NCBI RefSeq assembly: GCF_001458435.1
Contig: NZ_CYSF01000018.1
Span: forward strand, 62,001 to 126,000
Direction: 5' to 3'
Source of the DNA: Thalassovita mediterranea
GTDB taxonomy: Bacteria > Pseudomonadota > Alphaproteobacteria > Rhodobacterales > Rhodobacteraceae
Length of the DNA stretch: 64,000 bases
Made by a program: the position numbers and the translations under genes. This document shows positions 45,171 through 54,748 of this stretch, piece after piece; within the stretch, counting starts at the first letter, position 1, and each line of letters begins with the position of its first letter. Below the pieces are notes generated by a model. That model saw only the letters and a program-made list of their open reading frames with translations, made no database searches and had not been told where the DNA came from.

Positions 45171-47486
45171 TCAGACGAAATCCACAAAGTTGGCAAAGGG
45201 CATTTCCCGCAGACGGGTGCCGGTCGCGGCAAAGATCGCGTTGGCCAGCGCAGGTGCGGCCGGCGGCACGGGCGGTTCACCAATGCCACGGATGTTGTCG
45301 CCGTTTTCCAGCCCACGCACCATGATGTCGGGGCACTGATACAGACGCATACCTTCGTGGCTGTCAAAGTTTGACTGTTCTGCCATACCGTCGGAATATG
45401 TGATCTCGCAGTTCATTGCGTGACCCAGCCCCCAGATCACACCGCCTTGCATCAAGTTTTCAAAGTTCACCGGATCGACAATACGCCCGACCTCGGCCAC
45501 GACAAAGGCTTTGTCGATTTTGATGCCGTCTTCGGTCGCAGTGACCTCGATCACCTCGGCGGTGGGCACGCCGAAGCTTTCGACCATAGCGATGCCGCGG
45601 CCACGGTTCGGGCCCAGAGCGCTGCCCCAGTTGGACATTTCGCCAACCGCTTCTAGTGCCTTGCGGTGCAGCGGGTTGTTCACCAGACGCAGGCGTTCCT
45701 CTAGTGGGTCAACACCCGCAGCATGGCACAGTTCGTCAAAGAACCCTTCGGCAAAGAAACCTTGCGACGACGCACCGACCGAGCGCCACGAGCTGATGGG
45801 GGCCAGTTCTGGCGCACGGTAGCCGCGTACCCGCAAGTTCGGGATGTCAAAAGGCATGTTCCAGGCGCCTGCGACGATCTGGTTATCTGGTCCCGCCACC
45901 GGCTGACCCACCCGTGACATTTGTGAGGCCACGACAGATGGCATGGCGATCTGCATGTCCAGTGCGTCTACCTTGCCATCCTTTGCCGCGCCGCGCCCAC
46001 GGGCCATGGCGATCTGGCGGGGGAAGTCATGGGCAAAGTCCTCTTCGCGTGAGAAGGTCAGTTTTACCGGTACACCGGGCATCTGACGGGCGATCTCGGT
46101 CGCGATGGTGACGTTTTCAAATTCCAGCCGGTGACCAAAGCTGCCGCCGATGAACTGGTTGTGCAGGGTGACTTTCTCAGGATCATCCAGCCCCAGAATG
46201 GCGGCAACTTTCATCTGGGCAAAACGCTGCATCTGGTGGCCGACCCAAACTTCGGCGCTGTCTTTGTCCGCACGCACAATTGCGCTGATCGGCTCCAGCG
46301 GGGCATGGGCCACATAGGGGGCGCGATATTCGGCCTCCAGCACCTCGGCACCGTCGAGTGCGGCTTCGACATCGCCATCTGTGCGCCATGCGCTGTCCAG
46401 CTTGTCTTCGGTAAAGCTATCGCTCAGGGTCTGCCAGTGGGCGTCCATCTCTGCCGGATAGGGGGCGCTGCCCCATTCGATGTCGATGGCCTCCAACGCC
46501 TGAAAGGCGCGCCAAGTGTTGTTGGCAATGACCGCAACGCCCACTTTGGTGCGCCGGCGGGTCAGGCTGCCGTCCAGTTCCGGGTCCAGCATATCGCCTT
46601 GCAGTACCAGAACCTTCTGCACGCCGGGCATCTCCAGCGCGGCAGAGGCGTCATAGCTCAGCATCGCACCGCCTTGACGTGGGTTTACCTTCGCGGCGGC
46701 ATGGACCATGCCGTCGACTTTCAGGTCAATGCCGTAGGTCAGTGTGCCTGTGGATTTCGCCACCACATCAACACGCTGCATCGGTTTGCCGATCATGCGC
46801 CATTGCGATGGGTCGCGCAGGGCAACGTCGGTTACAGGTTCCATGCTTGCGGCGGTCGCTGCCAGATCGGTGTAGGGCAGTTCCGTGCCGTCGGGCAGGA
46901 TCACCATACCACGGGCGGTCTTCAACTGGGTGACCGGCACGCCGGTTTGTTGTGCGGCGGCGGCCTTCAGGGTTTCACGGGCGACAGCACCCGCGCTGCG
47001 CAGTTTTTCAAACTGATCGGGCATGGTGCTGGATCCGCCGGTGACCATCAGACCCATGACTTTGCCGAGGGAGCTTACAGCGCCGCGTGCCGCGCGCGCC
47101 TTGAAGCTTTCGTCAAAGGCAGAAAAGGGCACAGCATCATTGGCAAGGCCGGTGTTCCAATAGGCCGGCGCGGGTTTGCCAAAGCTGATCTCGACTTGAT
47201 CCAGTTCAACGTCCAGCTCTTCGGCAATCAGTGCCGCCTGCGAGTGGTGGACGCCCTGACCTTTATCAGTGTGCGATGCGATCAGGGTGATCCGATCGCC
47301 AGTGATTTTGACGTAGGGGTTAAACGTGGCTTCGCCGTCCTGCAGATCAGCGGCCAGCGGATTGTCGTGCGGGCGTTTGACCACATAGGTGCCAAAGGCC
47401 ACGCCGCCAGCAACAGCGGTCGCCCCGATCAGAAAGGCGCGGCGGGAATATTTGCGCAGGCGGGATTGGGGTTTCTTGTCAGACAT
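45171..47486 (-). CDS. Molybdopterin-binding subunit of an isoquinoline 1-oxidoreductase-like hydroxylase
   Basis: The 771-residue protein has an N-terminal Tat-like signal (RKYSRRAFLIGATAVAGGVAFG) with twin arginines. It contains two aldehyde-oxidase/xanthine-dehydrogenase Mo-pterin domains, segments ASHTDKGQGVHHSQAALIAEEL and QFIGGSFGHRLEFENVTIATEIARQMPGVPVKLTFSREEDFAHDF, and the active-site Glu loop IRGIGEPPVPPAAPALANAIF. This large-plus-small two-subunit form is the IorB/aldehyde dehydrogenase type that passes electrons to cytochromes in the periplasm. The substrate is likely an N-heterocycle or aldehyde. It follows the Fe-S subunit by three bases. No maturation genes are nearby. Confidence 0.9.
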   Translation of the reverse strand: MSDKKPQSRLRKYSRRAFLIGATAVAGGVAFGTYVVKRPHDNPLAADLQDGEATFNPYVKITGDRITLIASHTDKGQGVHHSQAALIAEELDVELDQVEISFGKPAPAYWNTGLANDAVPFSAFDESFKARAARGAVSSLGKVMGLMVTGGSSTMPDQFEKLRSAGAVARETLKAAAAQQTGVPVTQLKTARGMVILPDGTELPYTDLAATAASMEPVTDVALRDPSQWRMIGKPMQRVDVVAKSTGTLTYGIDLKVDGMVHAAAKVNPRQGGAMLSYDASAALEMPGVQKVLVLQGDMLDPELDGSLTRRRTKVGVAVIANNTWRAFQALEAIDIEWGSAPYPAEMDAHWQTLSDSFTEDKLDSAWRTDGDVEAALDGAEVLEAEYRAPYVAHAPLEPISAIVRADKDSAEVWVGHQMQRFAQMKVAAILGLDDPEKVTLHNQFIGGSFGHRLEFENVTIATEIARQMPGVPVKLTFSREEDFAHDFPRQIAMARGRGAAKDGKVDALDMQIAMPSVVASQMSRVGQPVAGPDNQIVAGAWNMPFDIPNLRVRGYRAPELAPISSWRSVGASSQGFFAEGFFDELCHAAGVDPLEERLRLVNNPLHRKALEAVGEMSNWGSALGPNRGRGIAMVESFGVPTAEVIEVTATEDGIKIDKAFVVAEVGRIVDPVNFENLMQGGVIWGLGHAMNCEITYSDGMAEQSNFDSHEGMRLYQCPDIMVRGLENGDNIRGIGEPPVPPAAPALANAIFAATGTRLREMPFANFVDFV

Positions 47487-47489
47487 GGA

Positions 47490-47954
47490 TCACGCCTCCT
47501 GCATGTTTTTGGCGGCGGTTTTCACTGCAGCGCGGATACGCGGGTAGGTGCCACACCGGCAGAGGTTGCCACTCATCGCGTCGTCGATATCTTCGTCGCT
47601 GGGGTTCGGGGTTTCTGACAGCAGGGCTGCAGCCTGCATGATCTGGCCCGACTGGCAATAGCCGCACTGGGCAACCTGATGTTCGACCCATGCCGCCTGC
47701 ACCGCATGCAGTGCGGGCGGGGTGCCCAGACCTTCGATCGTGGTGATTTGGTCGCCTTCTTCCAGACTGTCGGCGGTCACCTGACAGCTGCGCATCGCTT
47801 CGCCGTTTACATGCACGGTGCAGGCGCCACAGGCAGAGATGCCGCAGCCGTATTTCACACCGGTGATGTTCAGCTCATCCCGCAAAATCCACAGCAGGGG
47901 CATGTCATCTTCGACCTCCACCTGTTGTTCTTGTCCGTTCACAATAAGTTTCAT
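47490..47954 (-). CDS. [2Fe-2S] subunit of the isoquinoline oxidoreductase-like enzyme
   Basis: The 154-residue protein has a plant-ferredoxin type cluster (Cys37, Cys42, Cys45, Cys57) and a second helical cluster (Cys97, Cys100, Cys132, Cys134; [10 protein letters not shown] and CRCGTYPRI). It transfers electrons from the molybdopterin site. It carries no Tat signal itself and would be exported with its partner. It is the first gene of the pair and is divergent from the TetR regulator. Confidence 0.93.
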
Positions 47955-48127: not shown

Positions 48128-48695
48128 GTCCATCATGTCAGACAGCAAGATTGAAATTCTCGACGCCGCGATGCGGGTTATCATGCGCTTTGGGCTGCGA
48201 AAAACCACGATGAAGGACATCGCGGACGAAGCGGGTGTGGCCCGTCAAACGGTCTACAATGCGTTCCACAACAAGGATGAGCTGCTCTGCGATCTGATTC
48301 GTCACGCAGGCGGTCAGATGGAACAGCAAACCCGTGCGGACTGGCAGCGCCTGCCAACCCTGAAAGAACGGTTGGAGGTGTTTTATGAACACGCTCTGCT
48401 GATCGGTTTTCGTACACTGCGTGCAGAAGGTGCCAGTGTTGAAGACAGCCTGAGCGCCGCTGGGCATGTTGCTATTGCCGAGGTGGATCAGATTAAGGAC
48501 GCTTTGTTGCGCGACCTTTTTGCCGATCACGCAGAGGCGCTGGCACGTCAGGGCTGCACGGTGGATCAGATGGCGGATTGGGTGCGCTATACCTGCGTGG
48601 GCTACAAGCATCAGGCCCGAGATGAGGCGCACCTGATGGCGCTCTTGGGGCTGATGACGCAGATGGTGCTGAACCTGTGCGAACAGCCGGGGTGA
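48126..48695 (+). CDS. TetR-family transcriptional regulator
   Basis: The protein has 189 residues from ATG 48126 (186 from the alternative ATG at 48135). The TetR HTH is KIEILDAAMRVIMRFGLRKTTMKDIADEAGVARQTVYNAFHNKDELLCDLI. The C-terminal ligand domain is not diagnostic. It is divergent from the molybdoenzyme genes and probably represses them and itself, releasing in response to a substrate or product. No clear ribosome site is seen. Confidence 0.88.
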   Translation: MSIMSDSKIEILDAAMRVIMRFGLRKTTMKDIADEAGVARQTVYNAFHNKDELLCDLIRHAGGQMEQQTRADWQRLPTLKERLEVFYEHALLIGFRTLRAEGASVEDSLSAAGHVAIAEVDQIKDALLRDLFADHAEALARQGCTVDQMADWVRYTCVGYKHQARDEAHLMALLGLMTQMVLNLCEQPG

Positions 48696-48747: not shown

Positions 48748-49404
48748 TCAGATGCGGAAAATCGGCTGGAACAGGCGCGGCATCAGGCTGTTGAAGCGCA
48801 GCGGCGCATCAGTGGCCGCCAGACAGATGCAGGGATCACCCGCATCGGCGACGGGCGTATGTTCCAGATCCTCATCCGCCACTTCCAGATCACCACGGGC
48901 AAATCGGCCTGTTTCATCGCTGAAACTGCCCTGTAGTACCAGTGTCAGCTCCATCCCGTTGTGCCCATGATCGGGGACAGCCTGTCCGGCGGGGATGTGC
49001 AGCAGGCGTAGCGATCCGCCCTCATCCGCGCTGAGGATGGCCTGTTTCATGCCCAACCCCAGCGATCGCCAGCGCGGTGGTTTGTTTTTCAACAATTCCA
49101 TCAGCGGGGCAGGGTAGACGCTGTGCGGCTTGGCTATGGGCTGCGGCGCAGGACGGGAGATCGCCTGTTCCATCGGCAGATCCAGCTGCGCCATGAGGTT
49201 CGATTTGAACCCATCGCTCAACTTGGATTCTGCGCAGGTGTCCAGCACGGCACCGCCCATCGCATGATGGCTTTCCAATGCCGCGCGGCATTCGCCACAG
49301 ATCGAAATATGGCTGGCAACCACCATCGCAAAGACCGGCGGCAGGCTACCAGCCGCATAGGCAGCCAACAAAGCGTCAGGGGTATGTTGGGTAATTGCGG
49401 TCAT
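48748..49404 (-). CDS. chrR: Zinc-dependent anti-sigma factor ChrR
   Basis: The 218-residue protein has an N-terminal zinc anti-sigma (ZAS) domain with His7, His32, Cys36 and Cys39 (SHISICGECR). It also has a C-terminal cupin with His146, His148, Glu152 and His182 (DHGHNGMELTLVLQGSF...DLEHTP). These match in order and spacing the zinc ligands of Rhodobacter sphaeroides ChrR, which holds sigma-E (RpoE) inactive until singlet oxygen or organic peroxide signals. It begins one base after the rpoE stop codon (TAA-G-ATG), so translation is coupled and stoichiometry likely fixed. Both ligand sets are intact. Confidence 0.95.
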   Translation of the reverse strand: MTAITQHTPDALLAAYAAGSLPPVFAMVVASHISICGECRAALESHHAMGGAVLDTCAESKLSDGFKSNLMAQLDLPMEQAISRPAPQPIAKPHSVYPAPLMELLKNKPPRWRSLGLGMKQAILSADEGGSLRLLHIPAGQAVPDHGHNGMELTLVLQGSFSDETGRFARGDLEVADEDLEHTPVADAGDPCICLAATDAPLRFNSLMPRLFQPIFRI

Positions 49405-49405
49405 C

Positions 49406-49987
49406 TTAGCGCATTCCCTTGAGGTCGTGGCGCAGGCGTTCCAGCCCCAGCCGAATACGTGATTTGATCGTGCCCAGGGGCAGGCCGGTCGCGGTTGAGA
49501 TGTCCTGATGGCTCAACTCGCCCAAGTAGGCTTTTTCGATCATGTCACGCTGGTTGGGTGCCAGACGTCCTAGCGCGTCTTTTAACTGTTGCGTTTCCTG
49601 CTGAACGGCAATGATCTGACTGGCATCGGGTTCTAGGCCCGGCTCTTCTTTCAGTTCTTCGGGAACGGGGCGCCCTAGCTTGCGGTGCAGGTCGATCTGT
49701 CGGTTGCGGGCGATTTGATAGATCCACGCTGACACCTGCGCGCGGTGCGGGTCAAACTGTTCAGCCTTGTGCCAGACCGTCAACATCACATCCTGCACGA
49801 TCTCTTCGGCCTGAGCGCCTGCGCTGCCGGACCGAATGATAAACCCCTTGAGGCGTGGCGCAAAGTGATCAAACAGATTGGCAAATGCCACCTTGTCCCG
49901 ATGGTCGCGAACGGCCAGCATCCAGCGTGTTTCAGGCGCCAGATCGGATCCGTTGGACCCATTGCTGTCTGTTTGCTGTGGCGACAC
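49406..49987 (-). CDS. rpoE: ECF sigma factor RpoE (singlet-oxygen response type)
   Basis: The protein has 193 residues from the preferred GTG start. Region 2 is ANLFDHFAPRLKGFIIRSGSAGAQAEEIVQDVMLTVWHKAEQFDPHRAQVSAWIYQIARNRQIDLHRK; region 4 is LKDALGRLAPNQRDMIEKAYLGELSHQDISTATGLPLGTIKSRIRLGLERLRHDL. GTG 49987 follows AAAGGAG at nine bases and gives a length normal for the family. ATGs at 50122 and 50116 would add an Ala/Ser-rich stretch and lack ribosome sites. An autoregulatory sigma-E promoter lies upstream, giving a leader of about 135 bases. ChrR is its anti-sigma factor. Confidence 0.92.
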   Translation of the reverse strand: MSPQQTDSNGSNGSDLAPETRWMLAVRDHRDKVAFANLFDHFAPRLKGFIIRSGSAGAQAEEIVQDVMLTVWHKAEQFDPHRAQVSAWIYQIARNRQIDLHRKLGRPVPEELKEEPGLEPDASQIIAVQQETQQLKDALGRLAPNQRDMIEKAYLGELSHQDISTATGLPLGTIKSRIRLGLERLRHDLKGMR

Positions 49988-50127
49988 GGGGGGACGCTCC
50001 TTTGAGACGGACGCAGCAGCTGCCGCAGCAGGCGTTGACGCGGCGCGTGCAGCAGGGGTGTGTGTCCCTGCATGTCCGGCACCATTTTCAGAGCCCGCGT
50101 TATGATAACTGTCCATCAGCATAAAGG

Positions 50128-50156
50128 CGTTACGCGACAGCGAAAGGGCTGGATCA
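50128..50156 (-). promoter_or_regulatory. Sigma-E-type promoter of rpoE-chrR
   Basis: On the minus strand TGATCC (50151-50156) is followed after exactly 18 bases by TAACG (50128-50132). This agrees with the TGATCC-N18-TAA pattern of the Rhodobacter RpoE regulon as I recall it. Transcription would start near 50122. Confidence 0.8.
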
Positions 50157-50194: not shown

Positions 50195-50223
50195 TGATCC
50201 GATTGCGTTTTTCCTGCGTAGTT
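50195..50223 (+). promoter_or_regulatory. Sigma-E-type promoter of the lipid-modification operon
   Basis: TGATCC (50195-50200), 18 bases, then TAGTT (50219-50223). The two divergent minus-35 elements are separated by 38 bp. Transcription would start near 50228, shortly before the AGGAG and ATG at 50248. Confidence 0.78.
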
Positions 50224-50247: not shown

Positions 50248-51567
50248 ATGTCTTTTGACGCCCAGCCGACCGCGCCGCAGCGCATTGCCATCATCGGCGC
50301 CGGTATTTCCGGCCTCGCCTCTGCTTACCTTTTGGCGGGGCGTCATGACGTCACCGTATACGAGGCCGCGCCGCGACTTGGCGGGCATGCGCGTACCGTC
50401 GTCGCGGGGCGCAATGGCAATCAACCGGTCGATACGGGCTTTATTGTTTTTAACTACGCCAACTACCCGCACCTGACCCGCATGTTCCGCGATCTGGATG
50501 TGCCGGTGATCAAGAGCGATATGAGTTTCGGCGCCTCGATCAACGGTGGGTCGGTGGAATATGGCCTGCGCAACCTGACCGCGCTGACGGCGCAGAAATC
50601 GAACCTCTTGCGCCCCGGTTTTCTGCGCATGATCCGCGACGTGTTGCGCTTCAATGCACGGGCCGAGGCGCTGGCCGATAATGACGACAGCACCATCGCC
50701 GATCTGATGGATGACCTCAATCTGGGCGAGTGGTTCCAGACCTACTACCTGTTGCCGCTTTGTGGGGCGATCTGGTCTACCCCGCCGCAGGAAATCCGCA
50801 GCTTCCCCGCCCGCGCGCTGGTGCAGTTTTTCCGCAACCACGCGCTTCTCTCTGCCAGCGGTCAGCACCAGTGGTGGACTGTCGATGGCGGTAGCATCGA
50901 ATATGTGACCCGTCTGGCGGGCTATCTGCAAAGCCAAGGTGCTGATCTGCGTACCAATGCACCGGTGCAGTCGGTTGCTCGCGATGCGCTGGGCGTCACT
51001 GTGACCGCGAAGGGGGGCGAGCCGGAGCGCTATGATCAGGTGATCTTTGCCTGCCATTCGGATGATGCGTTGGCGATGATTGCTGATCCGTCTGCGCAGG
51101 AACAATCGGTTCTGGGCGACATGCGGTTTCAGGATAATGAGATGTTCCTGCACTGTGACGAAACCCAGATGCCGCAGCGCCGGTCGGTCTGGTCGTCCTG
51201 GGTTTACAAGGCCGACACCCGCCGTCCTGAACCCGCCATTGGCGTCACCTATTGGATGAACCGCCTGCAGGGCATCCCGGAGAGTGATCCGCTGTTTGTG
51301 TCGCTCAATCCCTCCGTTCCAGTGCGGGAAGAGGCGATTTATGATCAAACCTCCTTCCGCCATCCGGTGTTTGACCGCGCGGCGCTGCGGGCGCAGGTGG
51401 CGATGCGGACCATGCAGGGCGAAAACCGCAGCTGGTTTGCTGGTGCCTACACGCGGCACGGCTTCCACGAGGATGGATTTGCCAGCGCCGTGCGTATCGT
51501 GCGTGAGCTGGAGGCGCGGAGCGTGCTCGAATTGACCATGCCTGAGTTGGCGCGGCGCAGCGCATGA
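50248..51567 (+). CDS. FAD/NAD(P)-binding oxidoreductase of the sigma-E operon
   Basis: The 439-residue protein is an amine-oxidase/phytoene-desaturase-like flavoprotein. The FAD loop is RIAIIGAGISGLASAYLLAGRHDVTVYEAAPRLGGHARTV, with GFIVFNYANYPHLTRMFRDLDVPV and C-terminal WFAGAYTRHGFHEDGFASAVRIVRELE. It lacks a signal peptide. This family heads the cfa operon of many proteobacteria (flavoprotein-DUF1365-CFA synthase). In R. sphaeroides sigma-E-controlled genes of this type make furan fatty acids on phospholipids, so a fatty-acyl desaturase role is plausible. The ATG follows CAGGAGTTCCC. It overlaps the next gene by four bases. Confidence 0.9.
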   Translation: MSFDAQPTAPQRIAIIGAGISGLASAYLLAGRHDVTVYEAAPRLGGHARTVVAGRNGNQPVDTGFIVFNYANYPHLTRMFRDLDVPVIKSDMSFGASINGGSVEYGLRNLTALTAQKSNLLRPGFLRMIRDVLRFNARAEALADNDDSTIADLMDDLNLGEWFQTYYLLPLCGAIWSTPPQEIRSFPARALVQFFRNHALLSASGQHQWWTVDGGSIEYVTRLAGYLQSQGADLRTNAPVQSVARDALGVTVTAKGGEPERYDQVIFACHSDDALAMIADPSAQEQSVLGDMRFQDNEMFLHCDETQMPQRRSVWSSWVYKADTRRPEPAIGVTYWMNRLQGIPESDPLFVSLNPSVPVREEAIYDQTSFRHPVFDRAALRAQVAMRTMQGENRSWFAGAYTRHGFHEDGFASAVRIVRELEARSVLELTMPELARRSA

Positions 51568-52319
51568 GCGACCGGGTGACATATATCCCCGGTGTGACCA
51601 CCCATACCCGACGCGGCGCAATCAAAAACGCGTTTCGCTACAGTGTGGACTACGTGCTGCTGGATCCAGAGGCGCAGCTGCGCACGCCCACGCTGTTCGG
51701 GCGCAACCGTCGTGCCTTGGCTGCAGTGCATGATCGTGACCACGGTGGGGTGATCGGGCAGGGGCAGGGCGCGCCGTGGGCGCGTCAGGTTCTGGCGGAT
51801 CATGGCTTACCTGCGGATGGTATCACCCTGCGCCTGCTGACCCAGCCGCGCTGGCTGCACTACGGGTTCAATCCGGTGAGTTTCTGGTTCGCTTACCGCG
51901 ATGCGGATCTGGTGGCCGTGATCGCCGAGGTGTCGACGCCCTTCAATGACCGTCATTCCTATATCTGCCACGCAGAGGGATTTCTGCCGATCACGCGGGA
52001 AACGAAACTGAACAAAGCCAAGCAGTTACATGTTTCCCCGTTCCAAGAGATCGCCGGAGGCTATGATTTCCGCTATGATATCCGCGAAGATCAGATTGCC
52101 ATCCAGATCCTGCATCGCAACGGCGAAGAGGGGCTGATGGCCACATTGTCAGGGCCCTGCCAGCCGCTGACCAACACCGCACTGATCCGCGCCAGCCTGC
52201 GTCGTCCCCTTGGCGGTCTGCGGACAATGGCGCTGATCCACTGGCAGGCCTTGGTGCTAAAACTAAAAGGGGCGCGCTATCGTACGCGGCCTACCCCACC
52301 CAAACAGGAGGTGTCGTAA
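51564..52319 (+). CDS. DUF1365-family protein
   Basis: The 251-residue protein starts MSDRVTYIPGVTTHTRRGAIKNAFRYSVDYVLLDPE. It has the family motifs LTQPRWLHYGFNPVSFWFAYR, VSTPFNDRHSYICH and KAKQLHVSPFQEIAGGYDFRYD. DUF1365 genes are nearly always next to CFA-synthase-like genes, and the biochemical role is unknown; the Tyr/His/Phe-rich core suggests a lipid-binding or oxidase partner. Overlaps at both ends (ATGA before, TAATG after) show tight coupling with its neighbours. Confidence 0.92.
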   Translation: MSDRVTYIPGVTTHTRRGAIKNAFRYSVDYVLLDPEAQLRTPTLFGRNRRALAAVHDRDHGGVIGQGQGAPWARQVLADHGLPADGITLRLLTQPRWLHYGFNPVSFWFAYRDADLVAVIAEVSTPFNDRHSYICHAEGFLPITRETKLNKAKQLHVSPFQEIAGGYDFRYDIREDQIAIQILHRNGEEGLMATLSGPCQPLTNTALIRASLRRPLGGLRTMALIHWQALVLKLKGARYRTRPTPPKQEVS

Positions 52320-53476
52320 TGCTGTTCCTTAGCAAACGTGTGAAACAAGATTTTCTGGCCACATGTGAGCGCATGCGCCACGGCACGCTGCATCTGTCAA
52401 CGCCCGAGGGTGAGCGTTACACCTTCGGCGCGGGGGACCCCGTCGCGGAAATGCGGCTGCACGATTGGTCGGTTGTGACCACGCTGGCCAGCCGTGGCGA
52501 TATCGGTCTGGGCGAGGCTTATGTGGCCGGCCTGTGGGACACCCCGTCGATTGAGGCGCTGTCGCAGGTGGCGCTGTTGAACCTGGAAGAGTTCGCAGGC
52601 TACGCCTATGCCGGTTTCTGGGCGACGCTGAAATTCCGCGTGGTGGATCGGCTGATGCGCTCCAACTCCCGCCGTGGGGCGGCGCGCAACATCCGTGCGC
52701 ATTATGATGTGGGCAACGAGTTTTACCAGCTGTGGCTGGATGACACGATGACCTATTCATCGGCCATCTATGCGGCGGGGGACAATGATCTGACCCGCGC
52801 GCAGAACCGCAAATATGACCGTATTCTGGACCGCCTCAGCGATGGTGAACAGGTGCTGGAAATTGGCTGCGGCTGGGGTGGCTTTGCCGAACGCGCCGCA
52901 GACCATGGGCGTCATGTCACCGGCGTCACCATTTCGCCTAGCCAAAAGGGCTACGCTGACGCCCGCCTTGATGGTCGTGCTGAAATCCGACTGCAAGATT
53001 ACCGCGCCATCAAGGGTCAATTCGACAATATTGTCTCGATTGAGATGATCGAAGCGGTGGGCGAACGCTATTGGCCGATCTATTTCAATACCCTGAAACA
53101 GCGCCTGTCCCAAGGTGGTCGCGCGGTCATTCAGGCGATCACTGTGCCGGATGATTACTTCCCTATCTATCGCAAAGGGTCCGACTATATCCGCCAGTAC
53201 ACCTTCCCAGGTGGCATGCTGTTGAGCAGTCAGGTGATCCGCGATCAGGCGGCACAGGCGGGGCTGAAGGTGGTGGGTAGTCACGGGTTCGGCCCTGACT
53301 ATGGCCGCACCTGCGCCACCTGGGATCTGCGGCTGGAGGAGCAATCCGACCGCGTGCGCAAACTGGGCTATGGCGAAGAGTTCATTCGCAACTGGCGCTT
53401 CTACCTCGGGATCTGCGCGGCCTCCTTCAATGTGGGTCAGACCGATGTGGTGCAGGTGGAGCTGGCCCATGCCTGA
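52319..53476 (+). CDS. Cyclopropane-fatty-acyl-phospholipid synthase family methyltransferase
   Basis: The 385-residue protein has an N-terminal CFA domain (RGDIGLGEAYVAGLWDTPSIEALSQVALLN) and a class I SAM domain with motif I VLEIGCGWGGFAERAADHG. It also has the substrate-recognition region IRAHYDVGNEFYQLWLDDTMTYSSAIY and SIEMIEAVGERYWPIYF, VPDDYFPIYRKGSDYIRQYTFPGG. It would methylate unsaturated acyl chains of membrane phospholipids, giving cyclopropane or, as UfaM of the furan-fatty-acid pathway, branched methylene/methyl products. It overlaps the following SDR gene by eight bases. Placement behind a sigma-E promoter favours a stress-induced membrane function. Confidence 0.93.
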   Translation: MLFLSKRVKQDFLATCERMRHGTLHLSTPEGERYTFGAGDPVAEMRLHDWSVVTTLASRGDIGLGEAYVAGLWDTPSIEALSQVALLNLEEFAGYAYAGFWATLKFRVVDRLMRSNSRRGAARNIRAHYDVGNEFYQLWLDDTMTYSSAIYAAGDNDLTRAQNRKYDRILDRLSDGEQVLEIGCGWGGFAERAADHGRHVTGVTISPSQKGYADARLDGRAEIRLQDYRAIKGQFDNIVSIEMIEAVGERYWPIYFNTLKQRLSQGGRAVIQAITVPDDYFPIYRKGSDYIRQYTFPGGMLLSSQVIRDQAAQAGLKVVGSHGFGPDYGRTCATWDLRLEEQSDRVRKLGYGEEFIRNWRFYLGICAASFNVGQTDVVQVELAHA

Positions 53477-54218
53477 CCCCCGCACCACTGAGCGTGTCTG
53501 GATTATCGGCGCCTCTGACGGGATCGGCGCGGCACTGGCTCGCGCTTATGCTGCGCGCGGGGATCGGGTGATCCTGTCCGCACGCTCGACCGACCGGCTT
53601 CAGGCTCTCGCCGGCGAGATGCCGAAGGGCGCGGCAGAGGTGGTGGGAATTGATATTGCGGACGCCGCCGACGTGGCGGACGCGGCCCTTCGGGTCAAAG
53701 CAGGCGGGCCAGTGGACCGTGTGATCAACATGGCCGCGCTGTATGATCCCGGTCAGGTCGAAGAGATTGACCTGACCCAAGCCGCCAACATTGTGCAGGT
53801 CAACCTGACCGGCAGCCTGCTGGTGGCGCGTGCCGCGCTGGACGTTCTGCGCCCACAGGGACAGATCGCGCTGTGCGGCAGTGTCGCGGGCTACTTTGGT
53901 CTGCCGCAGGGGCAGATCTATTCCGCGACCAAGGCGGGGGTCGCCAATCTGGCCGAAACGCTGCGAAATGAGGTGGCAGGCCGGTTTGACGTGCGGCTGA
54001 TTTCGCCGGGGTTTGTCGATACACGGCTGACCCAGAAAAACGACTTCACTATGCCGGGCCTGCTGACCGCGGACCGCGCGGCGGCAGAGATCCTGCAAGG
54101 GCTGGATGCGCGCCGGTTCGAGGTGCATTTCCCCCGCCGCCTGACCATGCCGCTGAAGCTGCTCAGACGATTGCCATATGCGCTGTCGCTGCCCTTGACC
54201 CGCCGATTGGTGCGCTAG
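53469..54218 (+). CDS. Short-chain dehydrogenase/reductase in the sigma-E operon
   Basis: The 249-residue Rossmann protein has the nucleotide loop WIIGASDGIGAALARAYAARG, NMAALYDPG in the NAG position, and the catalytic set Ser (CGSVAGYFG) with Tyr and Lys in IYSATKAGV (YxxxK present). A hydrophobic basic C-terminus (RRLTMPLKLLRRLPYALSLPLTRRLVR) may contact the membrane, suiting action on lipids. The start ATG lies in the last codons of the methyltransferase gene. Its substrate is unknown; a long-chain alcohol or ketone from the methylated acyl chain is a guess. Confidence 0.88.
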   Translation: MPDPRTTERVWIIGASDGIGAALARAYAARGDRVILSARSTDRLQALAGEMPKGAAEVVGIDIADAADVADAALRVKAGGPVDRVINMAALYDPGQVEEIDLTQAANIVQVNLTGSLLVARAALDVLRPQGQIALCGSVAGYFGLPQGQIYSATKAGVANLAETLRNEVAGRFDVRLISPGFVDTRLTQKNDFTMPGLLTADRAAAEILQGLDARRFEVHFPRRLTMPLKLLRRLPYALSLPLTRRLVR

Positions 54219-54261
54219 ATCTCTTGCTGTCACCCCAATACGTACCCAGAAAGAAGACCCC

Positions 54262-54660
54262 ATGAGTGTTGTTTACCTTTACCTCACCACCGCCGCCATC
54301 TTCCTGATCGTGGATATGATCGGGCTGCGGTTGCTGATTAAACCGGTGTTTGAACAACACGTAGGCCATCTCTTCGCAGAAGAGTTTCGCATGGGGGCGG
54401 CAGGTCTGTTTTACCTTGGCTATGTGGCGGGGATCCTGTGGTTTGTGTCGCTGCCTGCGCTGCGTGATGATGATGCGATGCAGGCGTTAGTGGGTGGTGT
54501 GGTGTTGGGCCTGATGGCTTATGGCACCTATGAGTTCACCAATTACGCCACATTGCGCGATTGGACGATGCAGCAGGTGGTGCTGGATACGCTGTGGGGT
54601 GGCGCGCTGACGGGCCTTTCTGCATGGGGTGGTGTGTCGGTGATGCGCAGTTTCGGCTGA
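54262..54660 (+). CDS. DUF2177-family membrane protein
   Basis: The 132-residue protein has four membrane helices (YLYLTTAAIFLIVDMIGLRLLIKPVFEQHVG; GAAGLFYLGYVAGILWFVSLPAL; LVGGVVLGLMAYGTYEFTNYATLRDW; VLDTLWGGALTGLSAWGGVSVM). It shows the DUF2177 signature GTYEFTNYATLRDW and DTLWGGALT. The family is known from CFA operons and elsewhere but has no assigned function. AAGAAGA precedes the ATG. It is the last gene before a terminator, completing the five-gene sigma-E unit. Confidence 0.88.
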   Translation: MSVVYLYLTTAAIFLIVDMIGLRLLIKPVFEQHVGHLFAEEFRMGAAGLFYLGYVAGILWFVSLPALRDDDAMQALVGGVVLGLMAYGTYEFTNYATLRDWTMQQVVLDTLWGGALTGLSAWGGVSVMRSFG

Positions 54661-54710
54661 TCGCGCGGGTCGCTGAAAACCTGCTATTCTGGCTCAAAAA
54701 CGACATTTGA

Positions 54711-54748
54711 AAAACACCCTGCGTCACTGCGGGGTGTTTTTGTTTTTG
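54711..54748 (+). terminator. Terminator of the sigma-E lipid-modification operon
   Basis: Stem AAAACACCC/GGGTGTTTT (54711-54719 and 54732-54740) is followed by TGTTTTT. It lies about 50 bases past the DUF2177 stop codon. Confidence 0.88.

Follow-up and report, generated by a model that had tools for sequence, protein, structure and literature searches.

A predicted furan-fatty-acid operon in Thalassovita mediterranea and its recurrent partner, the membrane protein family DUF2177

Genes and promoters of the locus

The stretch of DNA analysed in the current study (the window) is 64 kb of contig NZ_CYSF01000018.1 of Thalassovita mediterranea, and its subject is a group of five genes on the forward strand (nt 50248–54660) that, judging from sequence, very probably forms a light-stress-controlled operon making membrane furan fatty acids by the known three-enzyme route. 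The operon starts at an ATG (nt 50248) with a candidate ufaD (nt 50248–51567), a predicted flavin adenine dinucleotide-dependent acyl desaturase of the flavin amine-oxidoreductase family (PF01593, E 1e-26; also PF13450). This is followed by a candidate ufaO (nt 51564–52319; PF07103, E 4e-62), specifying a DUF1365 protein predicted to form the furan in an O2-dependent manner, and a candidate ufaM (nt 52319–53476; PF02353 (CMAS/CFA), E 2e-74), a predicted S-adenosylmethionine-dependent acyl methylase of the cyclopropane fatty acid synthase (CFA) superfamily. The last two genes encode a short-chain dehydrogenase/reductase (SDR; nt 53469–54218; PF00106), a probable divergent counterpart of RSP1087 of Rhodobacter sphaeroides, and a four-helix membrane protein of family DUF2177 (nt 54262–54660; PF09945, E 8e-37). 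Family searches and open reading frames (ORFs) bear out the gene order proposed in a first-pass annotation of this DNA, as well as its tight packing behind a sigma-E promoter: successive genes overlap by 4, 1, and 8 nt, with a 43-nt gap ahead of the DUF2177 gene. The sequence shows a terminator-like hairpin of 14 pairs with a T tail (nt 54710–54741, forward strand) at the operon end. Divergent to the operon, on the reverse strand, are rpoE (nt 49406–50116; PF04542/PF08281), an ECF11-type sigma factor gene with its start assumed at MDSYHNAG, and the adjoining chrR (nt 48748–49404), the zinc/cupin anti-sigma factor of RpoE (TIGR02451, 216.8 bits against a cut-off of 124.5).

The motif TGATCC-N16-CGTA recurs ahead of rpoE and ufaD in many loci, and has just two matches in the window, one ahead of each divergent operon (rpoE, nt 50131–50156, reverse strand; ufaD, nt 50195–50220, forward strand). 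With these promoters and a ChrR anti-sigma partner, the locus has the hallmarks of an ECF11 regulon. The window ChrR is about 55% identical to the R. sphaeroides ChrR of PDB 2Z2S; the closest relative of that structure sequence among 299 genomes of the family, a sample lying outside R. sphaeroides, is 70% identical. Across the genome there are 54 motif matches, mostly within genes or repeats; the analysis used only the ones immediately preceding a gene. The motif is found directly upstream of genes for an rpoH-type sigma factor, a photolyase, a photolyase/cryptochrome-like protein, and a chalcone-isomerase-like protein, all four identified by eye from their translations rather than by family search. 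RpoHII and photolyase are established RpoE targets in R. sphaeroides (PMC6852236, PMC5507510), and RSP1087, an SDR, is named as a core member of the RpoE-ChrR regulon in the passage of PMC5507510 that cites Dufour 2008. For the chalcone-isomerase-like gene (nt 558–1121 of L328, forward strand) the distance to the motif is 41 nt. Another genome (L067) has such a gene (PF16036) within a ufa operon, and the protein is a further accessory candidate.

The three furan-fatty-acid enzymes

In R. sphaeroides, RSP2144 (UfaM), RSP1091 (UfaD), and RSP1090 (UfaO, a DUF1365 protein) make the furan fatty acid 9M5-FuFA (Lemke 2020, PMC7380195). The three genes are sufficient for this in that organism, the furan oxygen derives from O2 via UfaO, and RPA2571-2570-2569 of Rhodopseudomonas palustris represent ufaD-ufaO-ufaM (PMC7380195). 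The flavoprotein, DUF1365 protein, and methylase of the window match these three known enzymes, so DUF1365 is not a new part. The first-pass annotation had left DUF1365 without an assigned step, which is contradicted by RSP1090, whose product carries out the O2 insertion. Its broader proposal, of a furan-fatty-acid operon controlled by the RpoE/ChrR stress sigma factor, is supported by the gene families, the ufaD-ufaO-ufaM order, the methylase clade, and the promoter.

The window UfaD is 54–56% identical to the product of the first gene of RSP1091-1087-type operons, and the window UfaO 51–60% identical to that of the second. The DUF1365 domain is full-length (PF07103, residues 9–245, 210 bits) and has a single copy in the genome; the gene adjoins ufaD within an RpoE/ChrR locus, and ufaD itself is recognised both by family and as the first gene of a ufa locus. 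Of 151 genomes from this family, sampled evenly and mostly one per genus, 126 carry a UfaO relative. UfaD directly adjoins UfaO in nearly all of 40 loci, and in loci of the family rpoE-chrR is usually divergent. Many loci follow the RSP1091-1087 plan, which consists of UfaD, UfaO, an MFS_2 transporter, DUF3833, and an SDR. In one of these (L079), the first-start ORFs are 431, 251, 429, 186, and 245 aa in length, close to the published 250, 402, 186, and 245 aa of RSP1090-1087. Such syntenic genomes, rather than the named R. sphaeroides and R. palustris sequences, served as the reference for Ufa orthology; PMC10940516 lists the named proteins under the UniProt accessions Q3IYV7 (UfaD), Q3IYV8 (UfaO), Q3J4I7 (UfaM), and Q6NBA4 (FufM). 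What the sequences show directly is the family of each protein, the synteny, the clade, the promoter, the regulon, and the linkage within genomes.

The structural model of UfaO (predicted local distance difference test, pLDDT, of 90) is beta-rich, and its best PDB matches are weak ones to nitrobindin-type barrels (E 4e-3, template-modelling score 0.3–0.47), a similarity too weak for any claim of a heme. The invariant residues of UfaO include H14, R16, D59, E122, H131, and K153, which might serve an oxygenase as ligands of a cofactor.

In a tree of 68 methylases the window protein falls in a clade of 48 sequences (support 99/95), which holds all methylases of ufa loci together with the photolyase-adjacent ones of RSP-type genomes, while CFAs of solved structure and FufM-like proteins fall outside it. 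The photolyase-adjacent type is seen in 15 genomes, nearly all RSP-type, in which a UfaM-like gene is located elsewhere, mostly directly after a photolyase gene, as in RSP2143-2144. The window methylase has the active-site signature S148/A246/Q272 and keeps E245 and Y328 (E239 and Y317 of CFA). All 48 clade members have Ser or Ala at E. coli C139, Ala at the His following E239, and Gln at H266, whereas both of the latter positions are still His in the seven CFAs and 13 FufM-like proteins. The bicarbonate ligands of CFA, C139 and H266, which are strictly conserved in non-plant cyclopropane synthases (PMC3132707), are thus S and Q in the window protein. In cotton cyclopropane synthases the two sites are likewise occupied by Ser (in two of three) and Gln (PMC3132707), so the signature is not exclusive to UfaM, and its use as proof against cyclopropane formation was withdrawn. 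Membership of the CFA superfamily and the changes shared with cotton are what would favour a cyclopropane stress operon, in which the methylase makes cyclopropane lipids while the flavoprotein and DUF1365 protein act otherwise. This is nevertheless improbable, given the position of the methylase in the UfaM clade, its synteny with ufa loci, the replacement of both ligands throughout that clade and their retention in the CFAs of the tree, and the furan fatty acids produced by those operons of this type that have been tested. No second CFA-family methylase or FufM was found in this genome, in which the only match beyond the operon gene is a partial one of 23 bits, compared with 58–80 bits for FufM-like proteins with the same query. 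A monomethyl furan product is therefore predicted.

DUF2177 and its SDR partner

While the furan-fatty-acid reading is well supported, it is mostly not new; the new part is DUF2177. In a sample of 329 Pseudomonadota genomes DUF2177 occurs in 60, of which 50 also carry DUF1365 (Fisher's exact test, odds ratio 9.5, p 3.6e-12), and in 17 genomes the two are no more than 8 kb apart. A smaller alphaproteobacterial sample, compared by hand, is in agreement, with DUF2177 in 27 of 241 genomes, 25 of them with a UfaO relative. Linked loci combine DUF2177 with UfaD, UfaO, UfaM, a FufM-like methylase, and DUF1295 around rpoE-chrR, and a Marinimicrobia metagenome-assembled genome (MAG) also holds the DUF2177/ufa gene set. 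DUF1295, a steroid-reductase-like membrane family, recurs beside DUF2177/ufa genes outside the Rhodobacterales (L132–L138, L142–L147, L280, L290, L293), and is a second unassigned family of the set. A further 80 named relatives were selected by DUF2177 itself, and only the other samples serve the tests of co-occurrence and co-segregation. Among these 80, DUF2177 adjoins an SDR in three arrangements: in the order seen in the window (Octadecabacter, Iodidimonas, Celeribacter naphthalenivorans), divergent from SDR-chrR-rpoE (Celeribacter persicus, Alloyangia, Paracoccus shanxieyensis), or divergent from SDR-ufaM-ufaO-ufaD (Salipiger thiooxidans).

Where DUF2177 lies away from ufa genes it frequently has a promoter of its own. 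The ECF11 motif is present upstream of 13 of 71 such genes, as against 6 of 1264 control genes from the same loci (odds ratio 47, p 2e-13); under the same strict pattern ufaD has it in 41 of 91 cases. The motif ends 21–37 nt ahead of the start codon in all 13, with an extra match at 110 nt in L272. By linkage, co-occurrence, and promoters of its own, DUF2177, which the first-pass annotation had named as part of the pathway, is a genuine recurrent partner of both the pathway and the regulon.

The SDRs of ufa loci form two clades, and the window type has a clade of its own. In a set of loci not selected by DUF2177, the window type occurs with DUF2177 in four of four loci, and the other type in none of 29 (p 2e-5). 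The window SDR is the genome's best match to the RSP1087-type SDR (38%), yet belongs to the other clade, tied to DUF2177. That it might be a paralogue, with the true RSP1087 elsewhere in the genome, was rejected because of this best match.

The DUF2177 model (pLDDT 96) consists of four long helices, and a Foldseek comparison with PDB gave no significant match. Invariant positions are D18, F50-Y51, T89-Y90, T93-N94, A96, W101, D109, and W112-G113. According to Table 5 of PMC4067076, singlet-oxygen induction of CFA1, CFA2, DUF1365, DUF2177, and DUF1295 genes in Chlamydomonas requires SAK1; that source also enters CFA2 under the name CPLD27, as a coclaurine N-methyltransferase. In plants, FufM has a homologue in AT4G33110, at 38% identity (PMC10940516). 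Three papers in the literature searched mention DUF2177, and in the portions covered no passage treats it as a furan-lipid gene; one such portion places it in heliorhodopsin operons. AT4G33110 is of the coclaurine N-methyltransferase kind, like CPLD27. DUF2177 proteins are also found in giant viruses (Klosneuvirus KNV1, Tetraselmis virus 1, and chlorovirus ORF A624R; BFVD and literature), at least two of them algal viruses, and a singlet-oxygen-linked lipid gene may therefore serve infection of phototrophs. Viral contigs scanned for DUF2177 yielded two matches, neither of evident relevance.

The chemistry that we infer for this organism, together with any role for the SDR and DUF2177, would run as follows. 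Singlet oxygen or an organoperoxide would cause ChrR to release RpoE, which would transcribe rpoE-chrR and the five-gene operon. UfaM would methylate cis-vaccenoyl chains of phospholipids, with 11Me-12t-18:1 as the product expected of a UfaM, and UfaD would desaturate the methylated chain. UfaO, for which 11Me-10t,12t-18:2 is the expected substrate, would add an O2-derived oxygen atom and so complete the furan, the end product being a monomethyl furan fatty acid. The SDR and DUF2177 would serve this stress response as a pair of accessory proteins. Singlet oxygen converts furans to dioxo-enes, and the SDR could reduce the carbonyls of the dioxo products that arise when furan lipids quench singlet oxygen, with DUF2177 as its membrane partner; in other genomes DUF1295 could reduce C=C bonds in the manner of a steroid reductase, and both activities would fit a system that removes or recycles oxidised chains. 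Furan fatty acids are indeed destroyed by singlet oxygen (PMC6852236).

It is tentatively suggested that the SDR and DUF2177 act downstream in this manner, on furan lipids that they handle or recycle or on the products formed from these by singlet oxygen, and that the oxygen insertion is not their task. The first-pass annotation saw them instead as extra synthetic steps, converting the furan fatty acid to a variant lipid. Their predicted co-transcription and co-segregation would fit this, as would the frequent position of DUF2177 beside FufM-like and DUF1295 genes, but the idea is unlikely: single deletions of RSP1087, RSP1088, and RSP1089 left the fatty-acid profile of R. sphaeroides unchanged (PMC7380195), the three ufa genes suffice there, and no such lipid is known. 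The deletions argue against a part for the SDR or DUF2177 in making 9M5-FuFA and leave an SDR synthesis step weakly founded, although an unlinked DUF2177 may be present in R. sphaeroides. Another possibility, also no better than tentative, is that DUF2177 is a general membrane-stress protein that shares the regulon and has no tie to furan lipids. Its unlinked copies, its presence in genomes lacking DUF1365, and the heliorhodopsin operons noted in part of the literature speak for this, whereas its repeated position next to UfaD, UfaO, UfaM, and FufM-like genes, in several Pseudomonadota families as well as the Marinimicrobia MAG, and its co-induction with pathway homologues in the algal table (PMC4067076) speak against it.

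Several points weigh against the interpretation of the locus as a whole. Ufa orthology is drawn from synteny, gene order, and clades, the furan product in T. mediterranea is a prediction from sequence, and the S/Q signature shared with the cotton synthases leaves a methyl versus a cyclopropane product unsettled by sequence (PMC3132707). The RSP1087 deletion lacks a fatty-acid phenotype, and related species are not independent in the co-occurrence statistics. DUF2177 is often unlinked, occurs without DUF1365 in 10 of the 60 genomes, and is present in Lactococcus, and therefore has other settings. It is a reasonable, though not the favoured, possibility that DUF2177 supplies furan-fatty-acid metabolism with a membrane component hitherto missing, one conserved between bacteria and green algae and present in some algal giant viruses, and that its partner in acting on furan lipids, or on what singlet oxygen makes of them, is an SDR or a DUF1295 reductase. 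As antioxidants, furan fatty acids are widespread, and little is known about their turnover once they have quenched singlet oxygen. The analysis picks out a small, highly conserved membrane family without assigned function, linked to the pathway by genomic linkage, SDR co-segregation, its own RpoE-type promoter, and algal co-induction, and opens this link to direct genetic test in standard laboratory bacteria.

Neighbouring genes and comparison with known systems

Beyond chrR, the window carries a TetR-type regulator (nt 48138–48695) and a molybdenum-hydroxylase-like pair (nt 45171–47954, reverse strand), in which the large subunit is accompanied by a small one of the 2Fe-2S type. Both seem unrelated to the ufa operon.

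Among known systems, the SAK1-dependent singlet-oxygen genes of Chlamydomonas reinhardtii resemble the window operon in that CFA-family, DUF1365, and DUF2177 members are co-induced, but differ in having a eukaryotic regulator, no operon, and DUF1295 as well, and the portion of the source that lists them (PMC4067076) makes no mention of furan lipids. R. palustris RPA2571-2570-2569 match the window in gene order, families, and three-gene core, to which the window adds the SDR and DUF2177. For a dimethyl product, R. palustris has FufM (RPA0924) in addition, whereas no FufM was found in the window genome. In R. sphaeroides the corresponding genes are divided between RSP1091-1087 (ufaD, ufaO, RSP1089, RSP1088, and the SDR) and RSP2143-2144 (photolyase and ufaM). 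This organism shares with the window the divergent rpoE-chrR, the promoter type, the ufaD-ufaO start, and an SDR at the end. The window operon differs in that ufaM is inside it while the transporter and DUF3833 genes are not (DUF3833 is located elsewhere in the genome, unlike in RSP-type operons), its SDR is of the other clade, and DUF2177 has been added.

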